This document shows positions 1 through 21,838 of a stretch of 22,452 nucleotides of DNA, in pieces. The stretch is from a virus: the IMG/VR virus record IMGVR_UViG_3300047481_000061, positions 1-22,452 of that record; one strand, 5' to 3'. Every line of letters begins with the position of its first letter. Within the stretch, counting starts at the first letter, position 1. Made by a program: the position numbers and the translations under genes. The notes below the pieces were generated by a model that was given only the letters and a program-made list of their open reading frames with translations, was not told where the DNA came from and ran no database searches.

Positions 1-289
1 CAGACATTGTTAATTTATCGGCAATGTGATATGAACGCATACGGCCATTAATGGTTCTTTGGCGTTGCTCAATTCTCTGGGTATTAAATTGCATTTCTCC
101 CCTATTATGATCAGATAAAATAATAAACTGATCTAGGAGGTTTGGGTCTGTTTCTCCTGTGGATGCCCCTACCTCTATACCATTAGGCACGTATAGGCCA
201 TTAGAGAGGGTTCCAGAGTTGTTTGACCATAATATACCCTGTGGTCTTGTATATCTACGTCTACCCGTTAAATAGGCACTAGTAGCCAT
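1..289 (-). CDS. Tail protein following the tape measure (N-terminal part only)
   Basis: The gene starts at 289 and runs off the low end of the window, so only the first 96 codons are visible. Its ATG overlaps the tape measure stop by one base (TAATG), which suggests translational coupling; a GGAGG lies 11 bases upstream, a little far. The protein begins MATSAYLTGRRRYTRPQG and is rich in Arg, Asn and Gly, with no signal peptide or membrane segment. In siphovirus genomes the gene after the tape measure usually encodes the distal tail or another minor tail protein at the tail tip. That is the likely role here, assigned from position rather than from a diagnostic motif. Confidence 0.7.
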   Translation of the reverse strand, partial: MATSAYLTGRRRYTRPQGILWSNNSGTLSNGLYVPNGIEVGASTGETDPNLLDQFIILSDHNRGEMQFNTQRIEQRQRTINGRMRSYHIADKLTMS

Positions 290-3200
290 TATACTCTTTG
301 CCTCCGAATTCTTTGTGAATCAACATTTTTAATTTCTCTCATTACTGCCCTAGCAATATCATTTGGATTTGAGTTGTTTCCATTAATATTAAACCCTAAG
401 TTATAATTATACACTGCCGTTGAGTTATCGCTCATAGATGTTGAAATATTGCTTACTGGAACTTGAGACATTTGACCACGGTTTAGCATTGAAGGATATT
501 TAGATTCATTTATTCTTTCAAGTAATGGACCGTAGGCTTTTGAGGCTGCTTTGTTCATTACAAACTCTCCAGGAGTTAACATTGTTGGCACACTGTCAGA
601 GCCAACTACCGTACCGCCAAACTTCATAGATTTACTTATTCCCATGCCACCTTTGCTTTGAGGCATTACTTGTCCACCGTACATTTTGCCTGGTATATTA
701 ATTTTTTGCCCTGGTTTAATTAAATTTGGATTTGAAATTTGTGGGTTTGCTTTAATTACATCTGAAAGGCTAACTCCTGCTGCCTTTGCAATTCCACTTA
801 ATGTATTACCAGACTTTACAGTGACAGTTGACCCTGTGCCTGTAACAGTTTTTGTATCAGTTACTATTTTTGTATCAGTTGCTACTTTTGCATCAGATAC
901 AAGACCTGGTAATGAGGCTAAAGACTTTTGAGCAGTAACAGCATCTGAAAGTGATTTTGCAAGTGCTGCAGCAGATCCTGCTTGACTTAAAAGTAAAGTG
1001 TTAAATGGTATTCCTGCTTTTTCTGCTGCATCAATAAGTCCAGCAAGACTATCTATTTCTGTTCTAGTTTGTCCAGCATAGTAAGCGCCATCTTTTAACT
1101 TTTCAACCTGAGAATTTAATTTTTCAATGTTTCTAGTAATTGAGCCAATAGTATTTTCAATTGTTTCTTTCTTTTGTTGTAAAGTTAATAGTGATTCTCT
1201 TTCAATTTTACTAATTTCTAATTGAAGTGTTTTATTTTGTTTTTCAATTTCAACCCTTCCAAGTGCCTTTATTTGAGCGTCACGGGAAAAGGTTAAAGCA
1301 TCTTTTTGTCCAGTTACAGAAGATGCTGCATTTTCTGCTCTTGCTTCTTGAGCAAGTTGTGCAGCAGCAGATATATCTCCACGAGTAAGTGCATCGGCAA
1401 TAGATAGTCTTTGTTTTTGAATATTTGCAATATTTTGATTAAGAGTTGCAATTTTATCTAAAGCCTCTATTTGTGTGTTATACCTTTGATTAATTGCATC
1501 TTCTTGTAAAGATATTGATTCAAGTGCAAAGTTGTTTGCATCAATTACAGCCTGGATTGGTTTAATTTGAGAATCTGTGATTTTTTGAATTTCATCATTT
1601 ATTGTTCTTAAACTTTCTTCTTGAATTTTTAAAGCATCATTTTCTGCTTTTATTTTTGATGCAAATTGAACGTCAATTAATTTTTCTCTAAGTTCTGCTT
1701 GTGCTTGATACTGTTGTAATTGTTTTTTGAACAAATTTGGTTTTTCCATATATTTTAATTCAGCATCAGTTTGACCTTTAATTGCTGCCTTATATTCATT
1801 AATTAGTGCAATAAGATTTGTTAATGACTGACCTTTACTATTTGCAAGAACTAAAGATGCTATTTCAGCATCATTTGATAATTCAGTTGCAGTTGCCTCA
1901 TCAACTTTTGCATTACGTAAAATAATGTATGCGTTAGTTTGATTTTGAATTGCTTTAATTCTTTCTTTTAATGGATTAGTTTTTCCAGCAGCAGAATTGG
2001 CTGCATTAGCAGCATCTTCAGCCTTTTTGTCGGCCTGAACAACCTTATTAATCGCACCAATTGTTTCATCATATAACTTTATTAATGCTTTTCTTCCTCT
2101 TTGTTGATCTTCATAGTCTTTTGATGCAAGAAGTTTAAAAATTCCGCTATCTTTATCTAAAACTCCACTGCTAATTAAGGCAAGGGTTTGCATTTGTAAC
2201 ACTGCACCTTTTAGATTTGCTAAAAATGGTGCTGCGTCAATGTTAAGTGATTTAAATATTTCCATTAAAACAAGTTTTTGATTTTCGGCACTAAGATTTT
2301 TGGTTGTTCCTAAAATTGCAAACATTGTTGCTTCAAAATCATCTGCGCTAATTAGTCCAAGTTTAAACATTCCAGCAGCAGAGTTTGAAACGGAAGATAT
2401 GGTTGTACTTAATTCAGAAAGAGATTTTTTAGCAGCATTTGACATTGTATCCAATGCACCTGGAGTTTTACCCTGAAATGCTTGCAATAAACTATTTTTA
2501 AATCCTTTAAACAATCCCTCTGCTCCAGTAGGCCCAACTTTTAAACTTTTTTCTAAACTCAAAATAATTGGTGCAATTTGAGTTTGAATTCCTTTAATTG
2601 ATTCTGCAGAAAGGTTAAGAGACTTAACGTCTAGTTTAATGCTTGTTTTACCAGCCTCTTCACGAAGTGCATCAACAATTGTTTGAACTTGTTGCTCTGC
2701 AAAACCCTGTGCCTTTAGATTAAGAGCAAGGGTTGTAAAAGCCAGTTTTGCTTCTTCTGCTGTAGCAGCAGAAAGTGTTTTAATAGTTGGAGCAAATTCT
2801 TTTTGGAATCCTTCATCTGCTCTTAATCTATCTCTTTCAGACCTTACATTTTTTCTTACAACTTCTCTATTTTTAAGATTAATTGGAAGTTTTGTTGGAA
2901 CAATGCCAAAGAAATCGCCTAGAGTTTTTACTTGTTGTGTAGTGGTTTTCATTGCATTTGAAAGACCATAAATATATTCTAATTCTTTTTTTCTTGCGTC
3001 ATTTATTAATTTAGTTGCAACAACAAATCCAGTTAAAGCAATTGCTGCTACTCCAATTTTAAGTTTTCCAATATTTGCAAGAATTCCTATAATTTTTCTA
3101 CCAGTAAGTAGTTGAAGTATAGATGATAAAGCAAATAATGGACCAGTTATAGTAAATAATATTTGAGAGAATTTTCCTAAGTTACCGCCAGCCATTGAAG

Positions 3201-6200
3201 CAACGCCTGACAATGCAGATAAAGCAAAAGTGCCACTCATAAATGCTTTATTTAATGAGTTCATTCTTTGATTAGCAATTACTATTTTTTGTTGTTGTTT
3301 TTTCATTAAATCTCTCATAGCATTTTCTTCATATGCTGCATTTAACACAGACATTGGAACGCCTGGTCTTGGCACGTTTGCTGCTACGGATCCTGGCTGT
3401 CCTAGTGCCCCGCCTGGAACAAATAATCCAGATGCTGTTTGAACCATACCTGCACCAAGTTTTTGTCCAACTCTTTTTGCATCATCTACATACTCTTGTG
3501 CTCCTAAAATTAATCCCTGCCCAGCATCTTGTCCTATTTTTTTCATTTTTCTTGATGGAGATGCTGCTTGTAAGGTTTCACGTAGTCCTTCTTCAACTGC
3601 AATAACCATGGAAGATCCAAAGTTTTTTGTTCTTTTTTTAATTGTTTCAATAACAAATTTATCTGCTTGAGCATTATATTGAGAAATATCTTGTTGTCTA
3701 TAACTTTGACCGCCAAGTTGTAATCCACCAAAAGTTTGACCAGTTGCAGAAGATGGAAGCGTAACTCTTTGTATTCCTCCGTGACCTTCACGTCCAGAAA
3801 CTCCACTTAATTGCGCTGTACCAAAGGTATCTCTTGATTTTATTAAAGCAGTTTTTGCTGCTCCTTCTAACATATTTTCTATTCCAGTTGCAATGATATT
3901 TTCAAAATCTCTTTCAGATACTACGTTATTTCCAACTTGTTTTAATGCCTGTCCAATAGATTTTCCAAACTCTAAAAGTCCTGGATCGTTAGGGTTTAAG
4001 TTATTTTGTTTTGCAATCATTGATGTAAATCTTGATCTATTTTGTCCTATAAATTTTGCTGATTCTCTTCCAGTTAACTGTCCTTTATTAAATGATGCTG
4101 GCATTGGAAATGTTAAATTAGACAACATTTTAACATTTTTATTTGTGTTTATCAATTGACTTGCAACCGCACCTGAACCAAGTTGCCTGCCCAATTCTTG
4201 GGCTTGAGATGCAGAAATCATTCTGCCAGGCGTTCCATGTGCAGCAACAATACCAGCATTTCCTTTAAATCCTCCTTGTGCTGCTGCTGTTGTTTTAGCC
4301 AATGGTATTGCTCCACCAGCAATTGTTTTTAGTTGATCCTGTAAACTTTTAGCCCTAACCCTACCTTTTGCTGTTAATTCATTTTCTGCATTTATCAAAG
4401 CATTTAATATTAAATCATCAATGTTTCCAATAACAGATGAAAGGCTTTTTGTTTCATTAATCATTCTTTGAATTGAAACTTGACCTTTTGGATTTACTGA
4501 AAAACTTCTACCGCCAAAAGAAATATTTCCATTTTCATATCCAGGAATATTACCTGCAATCATTCCTTGAATTAATCCTGCATATTTCTTTGTCATATCT
4601 GCTGGAATAACTGATTCTCCTGGAGATAGCATTGCTGGAACTATATCCCCTGCTCCTTTTGGTCCAGGTACTGAAACAATACCACTTGCTAGTCTCTTAG
4701 CACCTCTTCCTGGCATCATCATTCCAGGATTGTTAATTGCAAAGTTTCTTGCTGCTCCCGCTGCAGAGTTGTATGCTGAAATAAGTTTAGCAATTTGTGC
4801 TGTTTCTGCTGTGAAGGTTTGAGTTAATGTAGCATGTGTTTGATTAAGAGAGTGGGCTGCTGCTGCAGCATCTAGTTGTTCCATGGTCATATACTGGGTT
4901 TGTTCTCCAAGTATGCTTGTTTGACCAGTTAATCTTTGATACCCGCCACGAAGTGTTAAGAACAGTTTAATAATATTTGCTATACCATTTGCAAGCAAAC
5001 CAAATGTCATAAGAAGCACAGGACCTACCGCTCCAATACCAACTGTTAATAAAGTAATAAGTCTTTTGGTTCCAGACGAAAGATTAGCAAACTTTTCTAA
5101 TATATTTCCAACAAACTCTACAATTGGTGTTGCTGCTTCTAAAAATGCTTGACCAACTGGAACAAGCGCAATTTTAAGATCTTCAACAGTCTTTTTAAAT
5201 TTATTCATTGAAGATTCTGCTGACATACCCAACTCTTGTTCAGACAGTGCAGAAAGTTCTTCTACTGAAGAATTTGCTAAATCAAGAACACGAGCAGCCT
5301 GATTACCATCTTTGGCTACGTTAGCAAACAATGTTGATAGACGGGCAAACTGGAACTTACCAAACATTTGTTCAATTGCTCTTGCTCGTGAAAGTGGATC
5401 TAATGTATTAAGAGCATTGGCAAAACCAATAACTGTTGCCTTTAAGTCACCTTTATTTTTTTCAACAATTGCCGTTGCATTAATGCCAAAACTAGCAAGC
5501 ATATCCGATGCTTTTTTGGTTGGATTAATTAATGCTGCAAGACCTGATTTTAAAGCGTTGGCACCTTCTGATGCATTAATACCGCCCTCTTTCATTGCTG
5601 CAATAAAGAATGTTAAATCTTTTACATCGCCACCTAATTGCTGAATTACGGGGGCTACTTTTGGAATGGCAGTAGTAATATCATCAAGAGATACAACGGT
5701 TTGGTTTTCTACTGCGTTTAAAAAGTTAATTGAATCTGCAAGTTTTTCAGAAGACATACCAAAAGCATTTTGCAAAGATATTGTTGTTTCAAGTGCTTTT
5801 TGACTATCAACCTGACCAAGGATAGAAAGACGTGTTGCTTCTGTTGTCTGACGTTGTAAGTCTAGCCCTTGGAAGCCTGCTGCTGCAGCCTCTGCTGCCA
5901 AACCAACGGTAGTAGAAACCGCTACTCCATATTTAGTAAATTGTTTTGCTAGTTCTGTTATATCTTCTAATGCTCTTTGAGTTTCACCTTTTGGTGTAAA
6001 TAAATCTCCATAAACTTTTCTAAATTTTAAGGCTTGCGCTTCCATATCCATAAACGCTTTGCTTGCTGCTGTACCTACCGCCATTAATGGCAGGGTAAAA
6101 CCAACCATCAACTGACGTCCAGCCCATTGTGTATTCTTACCAAAGTTTAAAAGATTGGTAGATCCTTGTTTCATTAATTGATTAAATAATGCTTGTTTTT

Positions 6201-6687
6201 GTGCTGCTATTTGAACCCTGGTTGTGTAGTCACTCATATCCAATTGAGTTGGCATAATAGCCATTGCTCTCATTGCACCGTTAGTATCACGGCCCATTTT
6301 AATATATTGAGTTTGTAGTCGCTTTACACGTTCTTCTGCTACCTTGCCAATTGTGTCAAACTCTGATTTAAATAATCTACCAAATGTTTTTGTAGAGGCT
6401 CCCGCATAACGGAAGTACTCACGCATTGAAAACTTATTTTTTTCTAATGAGTCAGTAAATGACTCTGCAGATGTTCTAACTGTACGCATTTCGGCAGTGA
6501 AAGCGCCAATAGCGTTTATACTATTTAAAAGATTTTTTTGTAGACCTTTTTGAGCAAGGGCTGCTGCTTCACTTGATTTGGCTATTGAGGTGTGAAACTG
6601 AGATATCTGCCGTTGTAACGCTTTTAGTTGTGCTAATGCATTAGACGAATCAATATTAATGTCAATATTAGCATTAACATCAGCCAT
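289..6687 (-). CDS. Tail tape measure protein with internal LysM domain
   Basis: This 2132-residue protein would set tail length and be ejected through the tube at infection. Residues about 220-460 resemble the TP901-type tape measure core (for example AAEAAAAGFQGLDLQ and IAAMKEGGINASEG). Hydrophobic stretches lie at about 545-582 and 1150-1230, and a long Lys/Glu/Gln-rich coiled coil at about 1650-1865. Two copies of a short module found in tape measures occur: IVPAMLSPGESVIPA near 680 and SVPTMLTPGEFVMNK near 2032. Residues about 1954-2001 form a LysM-like domain (VKSGNTLSGIAKAAGVSL, ending KPGQKINIPG), probably peptidoglycan binding. The start is supported by GAGGTG upstream. At the usual rule of about 0.15 nm per residue the tail would be near 320 nm (inference). 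It follows the chaperone genes, as expected. Confidence 0.96.
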   Translation of the reverse strand: MADVNANIDINIDSSNALAQLKALQRQISQFHTSIAKSSEAAALAQKGLQKNLLNSINAIGAFTAEMRTVRTSAESFTDSLEKNKFSMREYFRYAGASTKTFGRLFKSEFDTIGKVAEERVKRLQTQYIKMGRDTNGAMRAMAIMPTQLDMSDYTTRVQIAAQKQALFNQLMKQGSTNLLNFGKNTQWAGRQLMVGFTLPLMAVGTAASKAFMDMEAQALKFRKVYGDLFTPKGETQRALEDITELAKQFTKYGVAVSTTVGLAAEAAAAGFQGLDLQRQTTEATRLSILGQVDSQKALETTISLQNAFGMSSEKLADSINFLNAVENQTVVSLDDITTAIPKVAPVIQQLGGDVKDLTFFIAAMKEGGINASEGANALKSGLAALINPTKKASDMLASFGINATAIVEKNKGDLKATVIGFANALNTLDPLSRARAIEQMFGKFQFARLSTLFANVAKDGNQAARVLDLANSSVEELSALSEQELGMSAESSMNKFKKTVEDLKIALVPVGQAFLEAATPIVEFVGNILEKFANLSSGTKRLITLLTVGIGAVGPVLLMTFGLLANGIANIIKLFLTLRGGYQRLTGQTSILGEQTQYMTMEQLDAAAAAHSLNQTHATLTQTFTAETAQIAKLISAYNSAAGAARNFAINNPGMMMPGRGAKRLASGIVSVPGPKGAGDIVPAMLSPGESVIPADMTKKYAGLIQGMIAGNIPGYENGNISFGGRSFSVNPKGQVSIQRMINETKSLSSVIGNIDDLILNALINAENELTAKGRVRAKSLQDQLKTIAGGAIPLAKTTAAAQGGFKGNAGIVAAHGTPGRMISASQAQELGRQLGSGAVASQLINTNKNVKMLSNLTFPMPASFNKGQLTGRESAKFIGQNRSRFTSMIAKQNNLNPNDPGLLEFGKSIGQALKQVGNNVVSERDFENIIATGIENMLEGAAKTALIKSRDTFGTAQLSGVSGREGHGGIQRVTLPSSATGQTFGGLQLGGQSYRQQDISQYNAQADKFVIETIKKRTKNFGSSMVIAVEEGLRETLQAASPSRKMKKIGQDAGQGLILGAQEYVDDAKRVGQKLGAGMVQTASGLFVPGGALGQPGSVAANVPRPGVPMSVLNAAYEENAMRDLMKKQQQKIVIANQRMNSLNKAFMSGTFALSALSGVASMAGGNLGKFSQILFTITGPLFALSSILQLLTGRKIIGILANIGKLKIGVAAIALTGFVVATKLINDARKKELEYIYGLSNAMKTTTQQVKTLGDFFGIVPTKLPINLKNREVVRKNVRSERDRLRADEGFQKEFAPTIKTLSAATAEEAKLAFTTLALNLKAQGFAEQQVQTIVDALREEAGKTSIKLDVKSLNLSAESIKGIQTQIAPIILSLEKSLKVGPTGAEGLFKGFKNSLLQAFQGKTPGALDTMSNAAKKSLSELSTTISSVSNSAAGMFKLGLISADDFEATMFAILGTTKNLSAENQKLVLMEIFKSLNIDAAPFLANLKGAVLQMQTLALISSGVLDKDSGIFKLLASKDYEDQQRGRKALIKLYDETIGAINKVVQADKKAEDAANAANSAAGKTNPLKERIKAIQNQTNAYIILRNAKVDEATATELSNDAEIASLVLANSKGQSLTNLIALINEYKAAIKGQTDAELKYMEKPNLFKKQLQQYQAQAELREKLIDVQFASKIKAENDALKIQEESLRTINDEIQKITDSQIKPIQAVIDANNFALESISLQEDAINQRYNTQIEALDKIATLNQNIANIQKQRLSIADALTRGDISAAAQLAQEARAENAASSVTGQKDALTFSRDAQIKALGRVEIEKQNKTLQLEISKIERESLLTLQQKKETIENTIGSITRNIEKLNSQVEKLKDGAYYAGQTRTEIDSLAGLIDAAEKAGIPFNTLLLSQAGSAAALAKSLSDAVTAQKSLASLPGLVSDAKVATDTKIVTDTKTVTGTGSTVTVKSGNTLSGIAKAAGVSLSDVIKANPQISNPNLIKPGQKINIPGKMYGGQVMPQSKGGMGISKSMKFGGTVVGSDSVPTMLTPGEFVMNKAASKAYGPLLERINESKYPSMLNRGQMSQVPVSNISTSMSDNSTAVYNYNLGFNINGNNSNPNDIARAVMREIKNVDSQRIRRQRV

Positions 6688-6709: not shown

Positions 6710-7039
6710 TTATTGAGCCATAGTTACGCCAAGAACGTCTGAAACTTCAGCAAGTTTAATACCTGATGCTGCTTCTACAATCTTGTAAACAGTTGGGAGA
6801 TCAATATTCTCCTCTAGTTTTTTTACGTCTTCAGAGAGTTCTGGCTTGTATTGTTTCATTGCAATCTGTACACACTCCATAAGAATGTCCATAGATTTTC
6901 CGTTATCTTCCGCCACTGCTCCCACACCCTCAAACTTCTTCATAAATGGACGAAGTAGAGAGATTTTTAGAGGACGTACTGTAACCTTTGTGCCATCAAT
7001 CAATGTAAGAGTAGTTTCCTCATACGTAGTTGTTGCCAT
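6710..7039 (-). CDS. Short tail assembly chaperone (G-like)
   Basis: A 109-residue protein directly upstream of the tape measure gene, the usual place for the chaperone that binds the tape measure during tail assembly. It is a clear paralogue of the N-terminal half of the next gene upstream: both begin MATT, share DGT, PLKI, LR.FM..FE and ECV.IAMKQY blocks, and end the shared part with a PT.Y....A.GI segment. It stops soon after that domain (GVTMAQ) and has no T-like extension. The start has a strong AGGAGG seven bases upstream. In most siphoviruses the G and G-T forms come from one gene by programmed frameshift; here the short form has its own gene. The chaperone role is inferred from position, size and paralogy. 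Confidence 0.85.
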   Translation of the reverse strand: MATTTYEETTLTLIDGTKVTVRPLKISLLRPFMKKFEGVGAVAEDNGKSMDILMECVQIAMKQYKPELSEDVKKLEENIDLPTVYKIVEAASGIKLAEVSDVLGVTMAQ

Positions 7040-7097: not shown

Positions 7098-7793
7098 TTA
7101 TTTTGTTAAATCTTCGTAATCTAAACCATGTCCAATACCAAAACCAGCCTTTATGGCATTTTGTCCTTGAAGGGCTAGTATATCTTTTCCATCAGTTGTC
7201 TTACCTTTACTAAACACTCTAGCCTTCATATCTTCCCACTCTTTTTGTCCTCTTTTAGATTCAGACTGTTTATCTAAATCTACCCCTTGAATTGCAGCCA
7301 AAAACTTTTTTTCTTCGTAATCAAGTTCTCTACGACTAGCAAGGGTAGCCATTAATTCTGGCATAGATAAAGATTCTTCTAATTCTTTATAGTCTTTCCA
7401 AATACCCAGCAAAAATACCTCTGCTTCTATTTTTGCTAAATCTAATTCAGACCAAGTGCTTCCACTATCTTCTGCTTGTGAACTTACCGTTTCTTCAGAT
7501 TTTTCATTTATTCTAATTCCCGCTGCAACATCCAAAATAATATAAATAGTTGGCATATCAAGACTATCTTCTATGTCATTTTTATTTAAGGGTATTCCTG
7601 AATAATATTGTTTCATAGCAATTCTTACACACTCTAATAAGTGATCTACTGCTTCGTCATCATTTTTGGCTTTTTTAACATATTCAAAGGCTTCCATAAA
7701 CTCACGTAAATATTTTATTTTTAATGGATTAATTTCTAATTCTGTACCATCAACAAGATTGATTATTTTATTTTTATAGATAGTTGTTGCCAT
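7098..7793 (-). CDS. Long tail assembly chaperone (G-T-like, single frame)
   Basis: A 231-residue protein in two parts. Residues 1 to about 97 are paralogous to the short chaperone encoded just downstream (MATT start, DGT, PLKI, ECVRIAMKQY, MPT.Y). A Ser/Glu-rich linker at about 98-112 leads to a second domain (SELDLAKIEAEVFLLG, then YKELEESLSMPELMATL and LDYEEKKFLAAIQG) that resembles the T part of G-T chaperones. The whole fusion is read in one frame, so no frameshift is needed. In the known system G-T recruits tube subunits and the tape measure. A strong terminator lies upstream, between this gene and the tail tube gene. I see no good Shine-Dalgarno, only AGAAAGATT before the ATG. The T-like assignment rests on position and general character, not on a specific motif. 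Confidence 0.8.
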   Translation of the reverse strand: MATTIYKNKIINLVDGTELEINPLKIKYLREFMEAFEYVKKAKNDDEAVDHLLECVRIAMKQYYSGIPLNKNDIEDSLDMPTIYIILDVAAGIRINEKSEETVSSQAEDSGSTWSELDLAKIEAEVFLLGIWKDYKELEESLSMPELMATLASRRELDYEEKKFLAAIQGVDLDKQSESKRGQKEWEDMKARVFSKGKTTDGKDILALQGQNAIKAGFGIGHGLDYEDLTK

Positions 7794-7820: not shown

Positions 7821-7848
7821 CAAAAAACCCACCTAATTAAAGGTGGGT
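7821..7848 (-). terminator. Rho-independent terminator after the tail tube gene
   Basis: On the minus strand an 8-bp perfect stem, ACCCACCT (7841-7848) pairing with AGGTGGGT (7827-7834), closes a 6-base loop and is followed at once by six T residues, G and more T. It lies 23 bases beyond the stop of the tail tube gene. It would reduce read-through into the chaperone and tape measure genes, as fits the large difference in copy number of these proteins. Confidence 0.9.
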
Positions 7849-7870
7849 CTTTGTTTAATCTAAGTCTAGA

Positions 7871-11647: not shown

Positions 11648-11670
11648 TTTTTCTCCTGTGTTCACTTGTA

Positions 11671-11679
11671 ATTATACCA
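11671..11679 (-). promoter_or_regulatory. Extended -10-like element TGGTATAAT
   Basis: The minus strand reads TGGTATAAT just after the terminator hairpin of the capsid gene and 23 bases before the ATG at 11647. There is no good -35 at 16-18 bases. Its place directly after a terminator suggests that it restarts transcription for the neck genes. Confidence 0.5.
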
Positions 11680-11687
11680 TCAGAATG

Positions 11688-11720
11688 ACAATAAGGAGGA
11701 CGGTTATTATGCCGTCCTCC
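11688..11720 (-). terminator. Terminator hairpin after the major capsid gene
   Basis: A 9-bp perfect GC-rich stem, GGAGGACGG (11712-11720) pairing with CCGTCCTCC (11695-11703), with an 8-base loop, lies 21 bases beyond the capsid stop. The following tract is TTATTGT, a weak T-run, so termination may be partial. It may also protect the 3' end of the capsid mRNA. Confidence 0.75.
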
Positions 11721-11741
11721 CTAGTACGTGATGATTATATT

Positions 11742-12887
11742 TTAGGAATCAGCACTATCTGCGTCAACATATGCGACTGCATCTAGTTCTTCCCAAGCAA
11801 GACCAAATCGTACGAATACTGTGTATTCAATTGTGTCTTTCTTTGGTTTGTATTCACGGTTTACAGTGATGTCTCTTTGGAAACCCCATACACGGTTAGC
11901 AGGGAATGTTAAATCAACATATCCTGATGGGTAGTAAGGAACCTCTAATACATCTACACCTAGTACACGAGTTGTACGTGCATTACCAAATGTTTGTGCA
12001 GCACCGTCCATGTAATCTTGACGGTTTGCTTGAGTGCTACCAGTGCGATCAGAGAACGCTGCTGAGATAGCATCTGCTAATGTACCGTTGTTACGAACAA
12101 TACCAGCAAAAGCATCAGTACCTGCATAGAACTTAAGATTTGCCTTAAGTGCACGGTATTTACGAGGCATTGCTAATAGCAAACCTTGCATTACTGATGT
12201 TGTGAAGTTGTCGTCTGATACTGTTGCAGCATATTCGTGAGCAGCATTTCCTACTGTTCCACGAGTTTGCTTTACGAAACCAGACATGATGGACAAGAAG
12301 TCTCCTGTTGCTCCATCACCGTTAATAGCAAGATCTTCAATATCGTTACCGAATGCGTTGGTCATTAATCGTACTAAACGATCTTCCAATGCTGCGCCTT
12401 CAATATTGTCTTCAAGTGCTTCAGTTGTTACTTCCCAATCAAGACGAATCTTTTTTGTTGTTAGTTCAACTTTTGTAAATCTTGCGCCAGTGTTTGTGTA
12501 GTTTGGTGAGCCTTGGTTTGCTGCACGAAGTACACGCTCTCCGACGTTGACTTTTTCAATTTCCATGGTGTTTGCTCTCATGGTGACACGACGGCCATCT
12601 TTAGCGAGGACAGTTGCATCCCAGACGTAGTCAATGAAACGTTGTGCTTGTTCAGGACGTAAAATACCTCCTGCGTTACCAGTTGGATTTACTGCGTTGT
12701 CTCCAGTTGTTACACCGAAGCCTGCAGTAGCAGTGTTACCAAGTTGTGAACCTACAGATGATCCTGCAGCGTTTAAACCTGTTGCACTACCTACACCACC
12801 AGATACAAGAGAACCTGCAGAGTTAATCTCTGAGCCATCTCCTGCGCCTGGATAGTTTTTTTCCAGATTTGTGTTTTGTTCCGACAT
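11742..12887 (-). CDS. Major capsid protein, HK97 fold
   Basis: A 381-residue shell protein placed right after the protease/scaffold gene. Residues 1 to about 75 are a Gly/Ser/Ala/Asn-rich arm of low complexity, unlike the charged helical delta domain of HK97. The folded part then starts with ILRPEQAQRFIDYVWDATVL, followed by a helix AALEDRLVRLMTNAFGNDIE, an ALAINGDG-type turn (DLAINGDGATGDF) and a C-terminal strand region (RDITVNREYKPKKDTIEYTV) typical of HK97-type coat proteins. The start has a perfect AGGAGGTGA six bases upstream, the strongest in the window after the nested scaffold site, which fits high expression. A hairpin terminator follows the stop. Confidence 0.93.
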   Translation of the reverse strand: MSEQNTNLEKNYPGAGDGSEINSAGSLVSGGVGSATGLNAAGSSVGSQLGNTATAGFGVTTGDNAVNPTGNAGGILRPEQAQRFIDYVWDATVLAKDGRRVTMRANTMEIEKVNVGERVLRAANQGSPNYTNTGARFTKVELTTKKIRLDWEVTTEALEDNIEGAALEDRLVRLMTNAFGNDIEDLAINGDGATGDFLSIMSGFVKQTRGTVGNAAHEYAATVSDDNFTTSVMQGLLLAMPRKYRALKANLKFYAGTDAFAGIVRNNGTLADAISAAFSDRTGSTQANRQDYMDGAAQTFGNARTTRVLGVDVLEVPYYPSGYVDLTFPANRVWGFQRDITVNREYKPKKDTIEYTVFVRFGLAWEELDAVAYVDADSADS

Positions 12888-12915: not shown

Positions 12916-13506
12916 TTAGTTAAATAGGTCGGCATTTGTGAGGAAACGACCGCCCCATAGGGATTTGTGAATCACTTGTGGTGATTCCTGTACGATCTCG
13001 CCTAGATCGCCAGACTTGCGGAAAGCGGTATCTTGCTCTACAAGATCTACTCGCTTGCCAAACTCGTTAAAGTTGCTCTTAATACCATTAACATCTGCTG
13101 TTACTGCATCAAGAGATTTTGTTACTGCTGTTACCTTCTCGTTAAGAGATTTGATAGTTGCAGCAAGATCGCCAAAGGCATTAGTAAGAGAAGTATTAAT
13201 TTCTGAAACTGCCTTGGCAACTTCTTCTTTAACATCTGCAATAGATTTTTCTACTGCGTTCTCTACTTCAACTGCTGCTTTTGCAACAGTAGAGTCTGCA
13301 CTAGCATCATCTGATTTAGCAAGAGCAAGTTCTTCAACTGCTGATGCTTCCTCAGCGACTGCAGGGGCTTCTGTTGCTTCTGCAACGACTTTTTCTGCTT
13401 CTGCAACAACTGCTGCTTCTGCATTTACCTCTGCTGGCTGTGCCTCTGGAGCAACCTGTGCATTTTCAACTGCAGTTTCTACAACTGCTTCTGTTGATTC
13501 TGTCAT
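12916..13506 (-). CDS. Nested in-frame scaffold protein (internal start in the protease gene)
   Basis: The codon for Met254 of the protease reading frame is preceded by AAGGAGGT with a seven-base spacer, a perfect ribosome binding site inside a coding region. Starting there gives a 196-residue protein that contains only the scaffold-like part: an acidic Ala/Val/Glu-rich segment, a coiled coil and the KSLWGGRFL tail. The domain boundary matches the internal start. The arrangement is the same in principle as lambda C/Nu3, where scaffold is made from an internal start in the protease gene. It would allow many scaffold copies per protease. The start is seen in the sequence; its use is inferred. 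Confidence 0.75.
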   Translation of the reverse strand: MTESTEAVVETAVENAQVAPEAQPAEVNAEAAVVAEAEKVVAEATEAPAVAEEASAVEELALAKSDDASADSTVAKAAVEVENAVEKSIADVKEEVAKAVSEINTSLTNAFGDLAATIKSLNEKVTAVTKSLDAVTADVNGIKSNFNEFGKRVDLVEQDTAFRKSGDLGEIVQESPQVIHKSLWGGRFLTNADLFN

Positions 13507-14265
13507 TGGATTTACCTCCTTAGTAATCTTAATTGTATTAATGCCTTTAGCACTATCAACTAAGAATTTTATCATTTCTGCATTATCTTTATCGTTCTTT
13601 TCTATAAAACCAATATTTTGCATCTTATTTCCAGTTACTGGGCTTGTTACTGAGTCAGATTCGGATACCATTACAATACCGTTTTCTGAATCCCAAAATA
13701 CATTTTCAATCTCTGCCTTAGATAAGTAACCACTTACGACATTCTGACCATTTACCTTTTCAATAGAAACAATGTTGGCAAATTGATTTGCTGGATTATC
13801 AACTAAAGAAAGTTCATGTAATTCATAGTTTTTAATTACACGAATTGTCTTGTCAATTTTCTCATCATAAGCGTCATCCCAAGTTTTAATATTTCCACCA
13901 ATTGAAAAGCCAGTGTATGTTCCATCTAAAACCTTTTCCCATGCATCTTGTGCACCTTTAGAAACATATGCTGAAACATAAACACCACTATAAAATTTTT
14001 TATCATTTGGATCAAAATACTTATCTTCTTTAAAAGAAACAATCTTGCCAACAGCACTTGGTTGGTGCATTTCACGAAGATTGCCACGAAAATTCTTAAA
14101 AGCCTCTACACTAGACTCTGTGGTTACAATATCACCTTGACGATCAACATTGTCAAGCGTAGCAAAACCAGATACCATACGGCGTTCAACGTCTATTTTT
14201 CCAATAGGCATTGATAGGCGAACATTGTCACCTTTAGTTTCCCAATGAGCCTTGTTTAATAACAT
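12916..14265 (-). CDS. Prohead protease fused to a C-terminal scaffold region
   Basis: A 449-residue protein. Residues about 18-170 match the HK97-type (S78/U35) maturation protease: MVSGFATLDNVDRQGDIV, a candidate catalytic His67 in REMHQPS, a candidate nucleophile Ser121 in YTGFSIGG, and the HELSLVDNPAN motif near 150-160. From about 254 the protein changes to an Ala/Val/Glu-rich region, then a coiled coil (about 335-420), and ends with KSLWGGRFLTNADLF, probably the capsid-contact tail. The protease would cut scaffold and capsid arms during maturation. No Shine-Dalgarno precedes this ATG; a TATAAT ends nine bases upstream, so it may be leaderless. It lies between portal and capsid genes as expected. 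An internal start at 13506 probably yields scaffold alone. Confidence 0.9.
   Translation of the reverse strand: MLLNKAHWETKGDNVRLSMPIGKIDVERRMVSGFATLDNVDRQGDIVTTESSVEAFKNFRGNLREMHQPSAVGKIVSFKEDKYFDPNDKKFYSGVYVSAYVSKGAQDAWEKVLDGTYTGFSIGGNIKTWDDAYDEKIDKTIRVIKNYELHELSLVDNPANQFANIVSIEKVNGQNVVSGYLSKAEIENVFWDSENGIVMVSESDSVTSPVTGNKMQNIGFIEKNDKDNAEMIKFLVDSAKGINTIKITKEVNPMTESTEAVVETAVENAQVAPEAQPAEVNAEAAVVAEAEKVVAEATEAPAVAEEASAVEELALAKSDDASADSTVAKAAVEVENAVEKSIADVKEEVAKAVSEINTSLTNAFGDLAATIKSLNEKVTAVTKSLDAVTADVNGIKSNFNEFGKRVDLVEQDTAFRKSGDLGEIVQESPQVIHKSLWGGRFLTNADLFN
13514..13521 (-). promoter_or_regulatory. Internal Shine-Dalgarno for the nested scaffold
   Basis: AAGGAGGT on the minus strand lies seven bases before the in-frame ATG at 13506. 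The protease start itself has no such site, so translation from the internal start is expected to be the stronger of the two. Confidence 0.75.
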
Positions 14266-14274
14266 GATTGTTAT

Positions 14275-14283
14275 ATTATAGCA
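14275..14283 (-). promoter_or_regulatory. Extended -10 TGCTATAAT at a leaderless-type start
   Basis: TGCTATAAT on the minus strand ends nine bases before the protease ATG, and no ribosome binding site lies between. Transcription starting six or seven bases after the box would leave only two or three bases of leader. Confidence 0.55.
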
Positions 14284-14290
14284 CTCGTTT

Positions 14291-14305
14291 TCTCAATTAT
14301 TGAGA
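14291..14305. repeat. 15-base palindrome over the portal stop codon
   Basis: The arms TCTCAAT and ATTGAGA are perfect inverted repeats around one central base. The portal stop codon (14297-14299) sits at its centre. It begins eight bases upstream of the TGCTATAAT element, where a -35 or an operator would lie. It lacks a T-run on either side and is not a terminator. Confidence 0.5.
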
Positions 14306-15901
14306 CGATCTGCCTTCACCCTGTGGATTACGGCCAGCAATTGTTGTTGGAGAATCTGAATTATTATTTGTTCGTTCTGAATCTCTTTCACGATTCCCTG
14401 CTAAATTTGCTCTAGCATCAGTTGCTTGTCTTGGTGACATTACAAACGGCTCATCTCCATCTGCTCTTAATGGCAAGTCTAACTTTTCACGAGCCTCATT
14501 TGGAGTCATAACCTGAGTTTTTACATATCTTTCAAGAATTTGGGATTGTGCAATTTCGTCAGTTAATGTTAACTCATTGAACTTAAGTTCAAGAATATCT
14601 GTTTTTTCTCTAATAACCTTGTTTATAATTTTTTCTAGGTGCCTTTGTGCTGGACGTGACACTTGTTCTTTGAATGTACGATCTTGGGAAAGTGCTGCTG
14701 CAATACCCGCAGAATCAGCACCACCTAGTTTTGAAATAGGTACCTGATGAGCAATTAAAATGTCATCACGATTTTGTTTACGATACTCTTTAAAAGAGCC
14801 ATCTTGTATGCCGTTTTCAATTGGTTCCATCTTAAACTCAACTTTATTGCCCTCTGTATCTCCAGGAAGCGGTATATAAAGAGTTCTGTGTGACTGAGCC
14901 TTAAGACCAGTTTGTAAAAATCTAAACATCTTATCTTCAGCGTCTCCTGATAGTTTTGCACCTTTTAAAGTTACAACATATCTTGGAACAGCCTTGTTTT
15001 CAAAGTAGTCAATATTATATTGAGAAGCAAGTTGATCTCCAATAAGAGATGGCATTGCTGAAATAATATCTGGAATACCATAAAATGTGTTTAAAGGTGA
15101 ATACTCTTTAAGATGGATAATCTCGTTAGGTCGTGGATCTGTACCTAGAGGATTTGCATTCTTTGCTCCAAAGTTTCTAAAGTAAACCACCTTTTGACCA
15201 ATAATCTGCACAAATCCATCACGTAAGCGTCGTATACGAACAGTAGTTGCAGGAATGTGACCAAGGTAGCCAATCTCTCCAGCAGTTGTTCTACCAACCT
15301 CAATAAAACCATTACCTGTTGCTTGAAGATCTGTATAGACTTTCTCCATTGTTTTTGTAAAACTATCATCATCATTTAAATTCTCTAGCCAGTCACGTAG
15401 TTGAATTTTTGCTCTTTCAATACGGTTACGAGCACGATCTACCGCTGCCTGATCTTCGTTCATTTCAAACCTTAATAACGTTCTATCTGAAATATCAAAA
15501 CGATATCCAAGACCTACAACGTTTTCTACCTTAGCATCAATAGCAGCATGATTAGCAAATGATGTGTCATAAAAGTTTGCTAGTTCGTACATGTTATATG
15601 GAGGGGTAATTACGTCAAATAGTCCGTAGCCATTTCTATATACCGTGCCAGGATTGATCTGTTTTGACCCTGCATTTGTTCCAGATGGGATTGCGTTTGC
15701 TGCATCCAAATATCTTTCATTAAATTCAGGGGCAGCGTATTTTGTTAAGTTGCGAGTTGTTCTGCGACGAAAATTTTGATCAAGTCCGACGTAATCTTTT
15801 AAAACATCCCAACTTTTATTAAATGGATCGTGTGATTTAAAAATACTATCTTCTTTTTCTTGTGTGTTAATACTTGCACGAATATATTCTTCGTCACTCA
15901 T
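14297..15901 (-). CDS. Portal protein
   Basis: A 534-residue portal of the HK97/SPP1-like class, which forms the dodecameric ring through which DNA enters and leaves the head. Recognisable segments are YNMYELANFYDTSFANHAAI near 100, the TGNGFIEVGR strand near 195, DPRPNEIIHLKEYSPLNTFY with GIPDIISA near 260-280, NIDYFENKAVPRYVV near 300, and HQVPISKLGG near 395, all in the order expected. The C-terminus is a long polar tail rich in Asn, Asp, Arg and Ser. The ATG overlaps the end of the upstream gene by eight bases (ATGAGTGA), implying coupled translation. Protease and capsid genes follow. No terminase gene is present in the window. Confidence 0.95.
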   Translation of the reverse strand: MSDEEYIRASINTQEKEDSIFKSHDPFNKSWDVLKDYVGLDQNFRRRTTRNLTKYAAPEFNERYLDAANAIPSGTNAGSKQINPGTVYRNGYGLFDVITPPYNMYELANFYDTSFANHAAIDAKVENVVGLGYRFDISDRTLLRFEMNEDQAAVDRARNRIERAKIQLRDWLENLNDDDSFTKTMEKVYTDLQATGNGFIEVGRTTAGEIGYLGHIPATTVRIRRLRDGFVQIIGQKVVYFRNFGAKNANPLGTDPRPNEIIHLKEYSPLNTFYGIPDIISAMPSLIGDQLASQYNIDYFENKAVPRYVVTLKGAKLSGDAEDKMFRFLQTGLKAQSHRTLYIPLPGDTEGNKVEFKMEPIENGIQDGSFKEYRKQNRDDILIAHQVPISKLGGADSAGIAAALSQDRTFKEQVSRPAQRHLEKIINKVIREKTDILELKFNELTLTDEIAQSQILERYVKTQVMTPNEAREKLDLPLRADGDEPFVMSPRQATDARANLAGNRERDSERTNNNSDSPTTIAGRNPQGEGRSSQ

Positions 15902-19807: not shown

Positions 19808-21838
19808 CTAATATAATTTAATTTCGCAGGCATCCGTACTACAGTATTTTTCAGATTCAGCATCAAGATTATCTTTACCGTCATAGATAGCAGACCAATC
19901 AATTTTGCCAATTGTTCCAACATAAGAGTTATATTCTTCTTTTGTTATTTGAGTATATGGCTGTTGTGGATATGTTTGGTTACCCATTGGTAAGAATGAC
20001 ACTGCTTTGAGTTGCCCCTCGTACATATGAAGCGCTGGAGCAATGTGCTTAGATTCTAACTCTTTGTCAAATGAAAGAGTTACAGATACACCATTATCAG
20101 ACCAATACTTTTGGGCGGTAGCAGCCAAACCAATTTTTTCAAAAAGACTTACATCTTTTTCAGAACGAGGATGTCCAGATGCTACTGGGAAATATACTAC
20201 TGAGGTATTTGCAGAGACTATGTCATCTTCAATTTTATACCCTGCTGCTTTAAATAAATGAATCATTGGATCTGTGTTTCCAAACCTTATAGCACGAAGA
20301 TAAAATGCTCCGCCAGGACCCCAATGAACTCCAGGTGTTGCACCAGATAATAGTGATACAGAGCCAGAAGGTTTGACGGTAGTTACACGAATTGATTCAC
20401 GTACACATAACCACTCCGAATATGTATGGTCATATGCACGAATTTTTTTATACCCTTCGTCCATCCACTCACGAATTACTGGCATACCCTTTGTATCTGC
20501 AAATGATGCAATGCCAGTTAAAGATGTTCCAATGCGACGATTACGTTGCATAATTCCATTTGTGGTTTGCCAATGTGTTGGCATTAACGTAACAGTCTTG
20601 CCGTACAAATATGCAAACTTTAGTGTACGGAGAAAATCTTCCTTATCTTCATGACGGTTTAAATGAACCTCTACAAGAGTACACAATTCATAAGACTCTA
20701 GTGGTTGTTCAGCACATGGATTAAATCCCATGACACGAGAATCTTTATAGTCTGGAGCATCTGCAAGTCTTCCATAATTTCTAGCAACATCTAGCCAAAT
20801 AAATCCTGGCTCACCATTATTTGAAATTAAATCAACATAGTCTTCATATTTTGTTCCAACTTCTGCAGCAATAGAATTATTAGACATCCATGCCCAACCT
20901 GGATTTTTTGAATCAAAAGAATTTCTTTCTGGAAAAACCTCTGAATTTTTTAAATTAATAAAATCTTGATCTCCTGGTAGTCCTAAAGCCAAGGTAGCAG
21001 AACGACGAACATTTCCAGAAACAACGCATGTACCAATAAGGTTAACAATATCTACTATTGCTCTAGAATCAAGTTTTTCTCCTGCTCTACCGCCGATTAC
21101 CGCATCTATCTTGTTGTGTAGTGCAATAAGTGGTGCTGGACCGCTAGCAACCCCTCCAAAGCCTTTTATAGGGGCACCTAGGGGGCGGATAAGGTCATAG
21201 TTAAACTTCTGTATAGCCTGATTAGGGCGTAGATATGAGTTTAAAAGCATTCTTACAGAATCTACCCAGCCTTCACGAGTATCTGGTATATCCCATATAT
21301 TTTCTGGTTCTGTGGGGGCATAAATAGGCATTTCTTTGTCTTGACCAATAGTGTCAAACCCTACACCTATACCTAGCATTAAAGCATCCATTACCCAAGC
21401 AAATAAGGCTCCTGGATCATTACGATCAATATCTCTTGTTGATACCATTGCACAATTTTGCAGGGAAGCAGAATTACGTCTTTCCATAGTCATAGGAGTT
21501 CCAAATGCCCATAAACCACGACCTGGTGGTGTCCATTTTAAATTAAACATACGATCATAGGCTTCTTGAGCAGATTTTTGAGCCTTGTTATCATTCCAGG
21601 GTAGTCTATTGTCTTTAGCGTGATTTTTTTGTACTGAGTACATTCCTTCAATTACCCGTTTACAAACCTCATGCCATCTTTCTTTTGTACCGTCTTCTTT
21701 CATGCGAGAATAGGTTCGTATAAAGGTAATTTCACCCAATGAGTTAGAGCCTGCATCTGTAAAACCAAAAGGGGCTGATACTCCAACATACTTGTTTATG
21801 AATTCATCTGTTAAACGAAAAGAAAAGACCTCTGACAT
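19808..21838 (-). CDS. nrdJ: Ribonucleoside-triphosphate reductase, class II, monomeric, B12-dependent
   Basis: A 676-residue enzyme that reduces ribonucleotides to deoxyribonucleotides using adenosylcobalamin. It aligns with the Lactobacillus leichmannii enzyme along its length. The expected residues are present: Cys129 in LQNCAMV and Cys386 as the redox pair, Asn373-Pro-Cys375-Ala-Glu377 with Cys375 as the thiyl radical site, and a C-terminal pair Cys666-x4-Cys671 for re-reduction. RLPDTREGW-like (DTREGW, 186-191), IRPLGAPIKGFGG and NVRRSATLALG motifs are also typical. The segment between GVGF (158-161) and DTREGW is about 30 residues shorter than I recall for L. leichmannii. It would supply phage DNA synthesis. 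It sits alone between structural genes, after a terminator and behind its own -10-like box; only a weak GGAAAA precedes the ATG. Confidence 0.96.
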   Translation of the reverse strand: MSEVFSFRLTDEFINKYVGVSAPFGFTDAGSNSLGEITFIRTYSRMKEDGTKERWHEVCKRVIEGMYSVQKNHAKDNRLPWNDNKAQKSAQEAYDRMFNLKWTPPGRGLWAFGTPMTMERRNSASLQNCAMVSTRDIDRNDPGALFAWVMDALMLGIGVGFDTIGQDKEMPIYAPTEPENIWDIPDTREGWVDSVRMLLNSYLRPNQAIQKFNYDLIRPLGAPIKGFGGVASGPAPLIALHNKIDAVIGGRAGEKLDSRAIVDIVNLIGTCVVSGNVRRSATLALGLPGDQDFINLKNSEVFPERNSFDSKNPGWAWMSNNSIAAEVGTKYEDYVDLISNNGEPGFIWLDVARNYGRLADAPDYKDSRVMGFNPCAEQPLESYELCTLVEVHLNRHEDKEDFLRTLKFAYLYGKTVTLMPTHWQTTNGIMQRNRRIGTSLTGIASFADTKGMPVIREWMDEGYKKIRAYDHTYSEWLCVRESIRVTTVKPSGSVSLLSGATPGVHWGPGGAFYLRAIRFGNTDPMIHLFKAAGYKIEDDIVSANTSVVYFPVASGHPRSEKDVSLFEKIGLAATAQKYWSDNGVSVTLSFDKELESKHIAPALHMYEGQLKAVSFLPMGNQTYPQQPYTQITKEEYNSYVGTIGKIDWSAIYDGKDNLDAESEKYCSTDACEIKLY

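Follow-up and report, generated by a model that had tools for sequence, protein, structure and literature searches.

A conserved internal Shine-Dalgarno start predicts a scaffold nested in the prohead protease gene of an actinobacteriophage family, paired with a putatively leaderless or near-leaderless protease start

The virus record IMGVR_UViG_3300047481_000061, whose 22,452 bases are the window analysed here, carries a tailed-phage head and tail module on its minus strand, in which a portal gene is followed by a capsid maturation protease open reading frame (ORF) with a second ORF nested in it, and then by the major capsid protein (MCP) gene. We propose, with a probability of about 0.83, that this one reading frame would give two proteins by two modes of initiation, a protease–scaffold fusion from a leaderless start and the scaffold by itself from an internal start led by a Shine-Dalgarno sequence (SD). 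The proposal draws on sequence features and their conservation among relatives, from which the RNAs, the two proteins, their ratio and the scaffold function are predicted.

The internal SD, AAGGAGGT, is followed by a seven-nucleotide spacer (aaatcca) and an in-frame ATG at 13504-13506, the codon of Met254, so that the order AAGGAGGT-aaatcca-ATG at 13521-13504 bears out the SD, spacing and start that the first-pass annotation had described. Its duplex with the anti-SD (-13.3 kcal/mol) is the strongest among all gene starts in the window, with the MCP start at -11.5, and no other in-frame start within the 449-residue ORF scores better than -5 kcal/mol. The combination of AAGGAGGT and an in-frame start arises in 0.35% of codon-order shuffles of the ORF and in 13.7% of synonymous shuffles, the latter because the Lys-Glu-Val...Met peptide already permits it. 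Judged from the window sequence by itself, the site is weak to moderate evidence and not decisive; the comparative data decide.

We fetched 280 loci, some contigs twice. Of these, 277 belong to the family, whose most distant members share ~30% identity with the window protein; L175 and L176, as remote outgroups, and the outgroup Alicyclobacillus phage MMB025 lie outside the family count. The protein is matched by 127 records of Streptomyces phages and by hundreds of metagenomic contigs. In 277/277 in-family loci, an in-frame ATG or GTG at the protease/scaffold junction is preceded by a strong SD, with a duplex energy of -11.4 kcal/mol or lower. These loci represent 66 distinct 40-nt contexts at the internal start and include cultured Streptomyces and Rhodococcus phages; in the Streptomyces phages Daubenski and Faust the internal start codons are codon 255 (MADERKDD...) and codon 268 (GTG, followed by AEENKNSE...), respectively. 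A check for relatives that lose the internal ATG or its SD without replacement found the site kept in all of these loci. Across 510 copies of the portal and MCP genes from these loci, a site of this kind occurs internally once. The site shifts codon phase between clades yet remains at the junction. The window clade reads AAG.GAG.GTN (Lys-Glu-Val) and the Streptomyces and Rhodococcus phages mostly AAG/GAA.GGA.GGT (Lys/Glu-Gly-Gly), and this difference in phase and peptide is the strongest argument that selection acts on the nucleotides. In the Streptomyces-phage (Stanwilliamsviridae-like) loci, the Gly-Gly pair at the SD is written GGA.GGT in 43/44, a spelling that the remaining 159 Gly-Gly pairs of these genes never use. 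When synonymous changes were counted by parsimony on trees, both main clades had their minimum for the whole gene at the SD or immediately before it (0/5000 permutations each). The gene shares with nested protease–scaffold genes a conserved in-frame start codon with an SD at a domain junction.

The full-length start lacks an SD (duplex energy +0.7), in agreement with the first-pass annotation, whose account contained neither the promoter at this start nor the hairpin before the internal SD, both of which were found here. The promoter motif TGNTATAAT occurs four times in the window, each time on the coding strand just before a gene start, and at the protease gene it ends 9 nt from the ATG. Of 122 distinct contexts, 96% have TANNNT at 5-11 nt upstream of the protease start, compared with 0-3% for the portal, MCP and internal starts, and an SD at or below -7 kcal/mol precedes the protease start in 0-1%; for the MCP and internal starts, the share of contexts led by an SD is 95-100%. 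The distance from the -10 box to the protease start is constant within clades, at 9-10 nt in the window clade and the Rhodococcus phages and 6 nt in most Streptomyces phages, in which the full pattern reads TTGNNT-N17-TANNNT-N6-ATG. TANNNT is the usual -10 in actinobacteria, where leaderless mRNAs account for roughly a fifth of primary transcripts or more (PMC4895711; PMC3898074), with about 21% of primary transcription start sites having a 5' untranslated region under 9 nt in Streptomyces coelicolor (PMC4895711) and 22-26% leaderless mRNAs in Mycobacterium tuberculosis (PMC3898074). The spacing at the protease start fits the leaderless mRNAs known from these two species (PMC4895711; PMC3898074). 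The start thus combines an absent SD with a -10 box placed for a predicted transcription start at or near the AUG, and the abutting promoter would explain why the SD is missing. On the simplest reading, the 5' end of the protease mRNA is predicted to coincide with the AUG or to lie no more than a few nucleotides from it, which would make the message leaderless or near-leaderless.

A conserved hairpin abuts the internal ribosome-binding region in the window clade. Its folding z is about -3, and codons 234-247 show one synonymous change where 73 are expected. Within 157 loci (78 haplotypes), changes in the hairpin are restricted to its three-base internal loop or convert a U-G to a C-G pair, and in more distant members of the window clade 93.5% of hairpin cells pair, compared with at most 52% when the hairpin is slid. 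The covariation score of the window-clade hairpin was not above shuffles (83/500) and it had no Rfam match, and we regard the structure as likely, not proven. Loccivirinae have different hairpins at a similar position, with three pairs changed on both sides (1/500), all in one divergent sequence (L203), and the Samistivirus-like and Rhodococcus phages have no clear hairpin before the internal SD. The hairpin lies just outside the ribosome footprint. When the opening of the SD was compared with synonymous shuffles, the wild type was more open than 92-99% of them in L001, L245, L084 and L203, with no such excess in L083, L082, L086, L092 and L204. Together with the position outside the footprint, this partly positive result is suggestive, though not proof, of an insulator that keeps the internal SD open.

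The full-length ORF (14265..12916) exceeds the curated Pfam cut-offs for PF14550 (29.3 bits; cut-off 24) and PF04586 (24.4 bits; cut-off 21), matches the PHROGs head maturation protease phrog_9427 (1e-114, residues 3-446), and among viral structures has Foldseek matches to XkdF and prohead proteases. These profile matches point to a prohead protease of the Peptidase_S78_2/XkdF type. An AlphaFold2 model built on 53 homologues has a confident protease core, a disordered stretch (residues 243-333) and a single long helix (328-417). In the alignment of these homologues, H67, S102, S121, E151 and S153 of the core are invariant, and we infer a catalytic role for such residues, H67 and S121 among them. 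The Streptomyces and Rhodococcus phage homologues have a zinc-ribbon-like C..C...M.NIG segment between protease and scaffold (residues 188-222 of P0001), whose cysteines are absent from the window clade.

The predicted nested product is rich in alanine (19%), and the C-terminal part of the ORF is acidic and predicted to be helical and lies between portal and MCP, as expected of a nested scaffold. The first-pass annotation had placed Met254 exactly where the protease gives way to an acidic coiled coil. The acidic (pI 4.27) and helical character was upheld; the placement was not exact, as Met254 stands at the start of the disordered linker, ~75 residues before the coiled coil. Sequence matches of the helix in the PDB are generic coiled coils, and the conserved C-terminus is a possible capsid-binding segment. 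A second stretch depleted in silent changes (window 12919-12966, minus strand, residues 434-448) occurs in the 3'-terminal part of the scaffold gene, immediately ahead of the MCP leader.

The MCP gene, next in the putative transcription unit, is followed directly by a terminator-like hairpin in which relatives show compensatory changes (GGGAGGACGG/CCGTCCTCC vs GGGCGGGTAG/CTACCCGCC), and this hairpin is likely the end of the capsid transcript. Promoter, protease/scaffold gene, MCP gene and hairpin may form one unit with three products, whose starts would be leaderless, SD-led and SD-led. In such a unit, transcription from the dedicated promoter would begin at the protease AUG or only a few bases away, and leaderless initiation would make the protease–scaffold fusion in small amount. 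The internal AAGGAGGT would load many more ribosomes at Met254, giving the scaffold domain alone in larger amount, so that free scaffold would be in excess over protease; this SD is probably kept open in the window clade by the hairpin immediately before it. The capsid protein would come next from its own strong SD, with the hairpin after it probably ending the transcript. The scaffold tail of the full-length copies would recruit them to the procapsid, where free scaffold would outnumber them. On read-through messages from upstream the protease AUG would have no SD to lead it, so their main products would be scaffold and capsid protein. It is also conceivable, though we hold this only tentatively, that the two start modes act as a device for both stoichiometry and timing, in which leaderless (70S-type) initiation from the gene's own promoter only would limit the protease, every transcript would supply scaffold through the SD, and the hairpin, as an insulator or as an operator that responds to ribosomes, scaffold or capsid protein, would be a regulatory element tuning that supply.

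Several other explanations of these features were weighed. An SD-like string fixed incidentally by selection on the peptide (Lys-Glu-Val or Glu-Gly-Gly), with no internal initiation, would be in keeping with the 14% of synonymous ORF shuffles that recreate the site and with the well-conserved surrounding peptide in the window clade. However, codon phase and encoded peptide at the SD differ between clades, GGA.GGT is confined to the Gly-Gly pair at the SD, and start codon and spacing remain functional while the linker is otherwise unalignable. An origin by chance or at the peptide level was therefore rejected on the change of codon phase and the codon choice, and we consider it extremely improbable. 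The string TTGATA-N16-TACAAT (13532-13559) matches the sigma-70 consensus at 10/12 positions and lies at the right distance, so an internal promoter could make a separate scaffold mRNA and explain the silent-site conservation. Yet promoter-like sites are no commoner than chance (61 vs 58.6 expected) and the Streptomyces phages have nothing similar at that place. We rejected this promoter, which is very unlikely, as relatives that keep the outer and inner stems of the hairpin have lost the -10 hexamer (TACTTC, AACTTC, TATTTC, TCTTTC, TGCATC). A single full-length protein that releases its scaffold by self-cleavage, as in gpO of phage P2, with a minor internal start, agrees with the union of protease and scaffold domains in one ORF, and such single-product genes are known, P2 being an example (cited in PMC8508860). 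It leaves unexplained why the strongest SD of the window is internal and kept throughout the family, and why the protease start has none; the two modes may operate together, and self-cleavage as the main route is quite unlikely.

Translation of the protease by coupling to the portal gene on a long mRNA, with TATAAT merely starting a downstream transcript, gains some plausibility from the portal stop codon 31 nt upstream and from the still closer preceding genes in Stanwilliamsviridae, but coupling needs no -10 box at a fixed 6 or 9-10 nt from the AUG, and the clade-constant spacing makes it an unlikely account. The nested product could also be real without being a scaffold, for example a chaperone or inhibitor of the protease, as it has no structural match to a known scaffold. 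The order portal–protease–nested ORF–MCP, the acidic helical protein, its conserved C-terminus and the lack of any annotated scaffold in the flanks of the relatives' loci fetched argue for a scaffold, and another function seems improbable. Some observations do weigh against the two-start proposal. Outside the family the pattern is weaker. At 27-31% identity, L175 and L176 lack a start at the junction, their best site being near the C-terminus. The junction of MMB025 carries AAGGAGG-N11-GTG, whose spacer is long, and the protease start of this phage is led by an SD. With the -10 box at 9-10 nt from the ATG, a leader of 2-4 nt is as likely in the window clade as none. Foldseek against the PDB returned nothing significant for the nested product, and we infer the scaffold role from gene order, acidity, the coiled coil and analogy.

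Table 1. Positions in the window of the features discussed.
Feature	Coordinates	Strand	Details
Portal gene	14297-15901	-	stop codon 31 nt upstream of protease gene
Extended -10 promoter TGCTATAAT	14275..14283	-	9 nt before full-length ATG; predicted start of leaderless or near-leaderless protease mRNA
Full-length gene: predicted S78_2/XkdF-type capsid maturation protease, in-frame fusion to scaffold domain	12916..14265	-	449 amino acids, 48.8 kDa
Protease core, residues 23-166	13768..14199	-	alignment of 53 homologues; predicted local distance difference test (pLDDT) mostly 85-90
Conserved 39-nt hairpin, 16 bp	13527..13565	-	-59 to -21 from internal ATG; abuts ribosome-binding region
Internal SD AAGGAGGT	13514..13521	-	7 nt before Met254; -13.3 kcal/mol
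Nested ORF, predicted scaffold, Met254 to stop	12916..13506	-	196 amino acids, 20.5 kDa, isoelectric point (pI) 4.27
Predicted long helix / coiled coil of scaffold, residues 328-417	13015..13284	-	AlphaFold2 model
Conserved scaffold C-terminus (A414..KSGD..., S.WGG.FL)	12919..13026	-	invariant or nearly invariant columns, 53-homologue alignment
MCP gene, SD-led (AGGAGGT), next gene in protease transcription unit	11742..12887	-	phrog_1623 4e-71; SD -11.5
Terminator-like 12-bp hairpin directly after MCP	11692..11723	-	compensatory changes in relatives
Promoter TGGTATAAT after MCP hairpin	11671-11679	-	follows the hairpin

Downstream of the MCP hairpin, gene 11291 at first looked leaderless, a reading that we rejected: comparison with relatives favours a start at an ATG slightly further downstream that is led by an SD, and the GTG that could be annotated as the start, 5 nt past TATAAT (window 11650-11680, minus strand), is probably not the real one. 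L016, L097 and other relatives have, downstream of the MCP gene, a short out-of-frame leaderless mini-ORF (ATG AGC ACA GGA GAA TTA TGA) whose stop overlaps the ATG of gene 11291. Further along the minus strand, another 12-bp hairpin resembling a terminator, with a T tract (7823-7852), lies between tail-tube-like and chaperone-like genes. Two adjacent paralogue-like ORFs (6710-7039 and 7098-7793; MATT.Y ... LLECVRIAMKQY) precede the tape-measure gene and are possibly two forms of the tail-assembly chaperone arising by gene duplication instead of frameshift. The tape-measure protein (289-6687) has a LysM domain near its C-terminus (residues 1956-1999), and a gene for a B12-dependent (class II) ribonucleotide reductase (19808-21838) adjoins the structural module.

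We compared the arrangement with known systems. The 'capsid maturation proteases' of Stanwilliamsviridae (phrog_9427) share whole-length homology (37-42% identity), gene order, the internal SD and the promoter before the protease AUG; the records examined annotate a single protein and no nested scaffold, the start codon is often GTG, the SD is in another codon phase, and the hairpin is different or absent. We know of no internal scaffold start in P2, whereas that of the window family is strongly conserved. P2 gpO resembles the window gene in that one gene encodes protease and scaffold (PMC8508860). In phage Mu the scaffold is likewise nested inside the protease gene, and for the Mu-like Pseudomonas phage PaMx73 it was proposed on similar evidence, with Val177 preceded by ACGAGGA (PMC4378225). 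The hosts are unrelated, the SD of the window family is much stronger and conserved across genera, and no leaderless protease start has been described there. The protease gene C of lambda with its nested in-frame scaffold Nu3 (Shaw and Murialdo 1980, cited in PMC8508860) shares the position of the scaffold at the C-terminus of the protease gene, between portal and capsid genes. In the window, a promoter abuts the protease AUG in place of an SD-led leader. The lambda C protease, which is ClpP/S49-like, is of a different type from the S78_2/XkdF protease of the window, and Pfam and PHROGs assign the latter to S78-type prohead protease families and not to S49/ClpP. The likeness in principle to C/Nu3 claimed in the first-pass annotation is therefore supported as one of working, not of descent. 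Our literature search, which did not extend to subscription papers, found nested scaffolds reported neither for Stanwilliamsviridae nor for this protease family or these phages. Nested scaffolds are already known from lambda and Mu, and the pairing of a leaderless protease with an SD-led scaffold is new as far as we found. It would supply the predicted scaffold for a large group of actinobacterial phages annotated with a single protease gene and, if the start modes are true, would offer a clear natural case of leaderless and SD initiation combined in one frame and setting the ratio of enzyme to scaffold.
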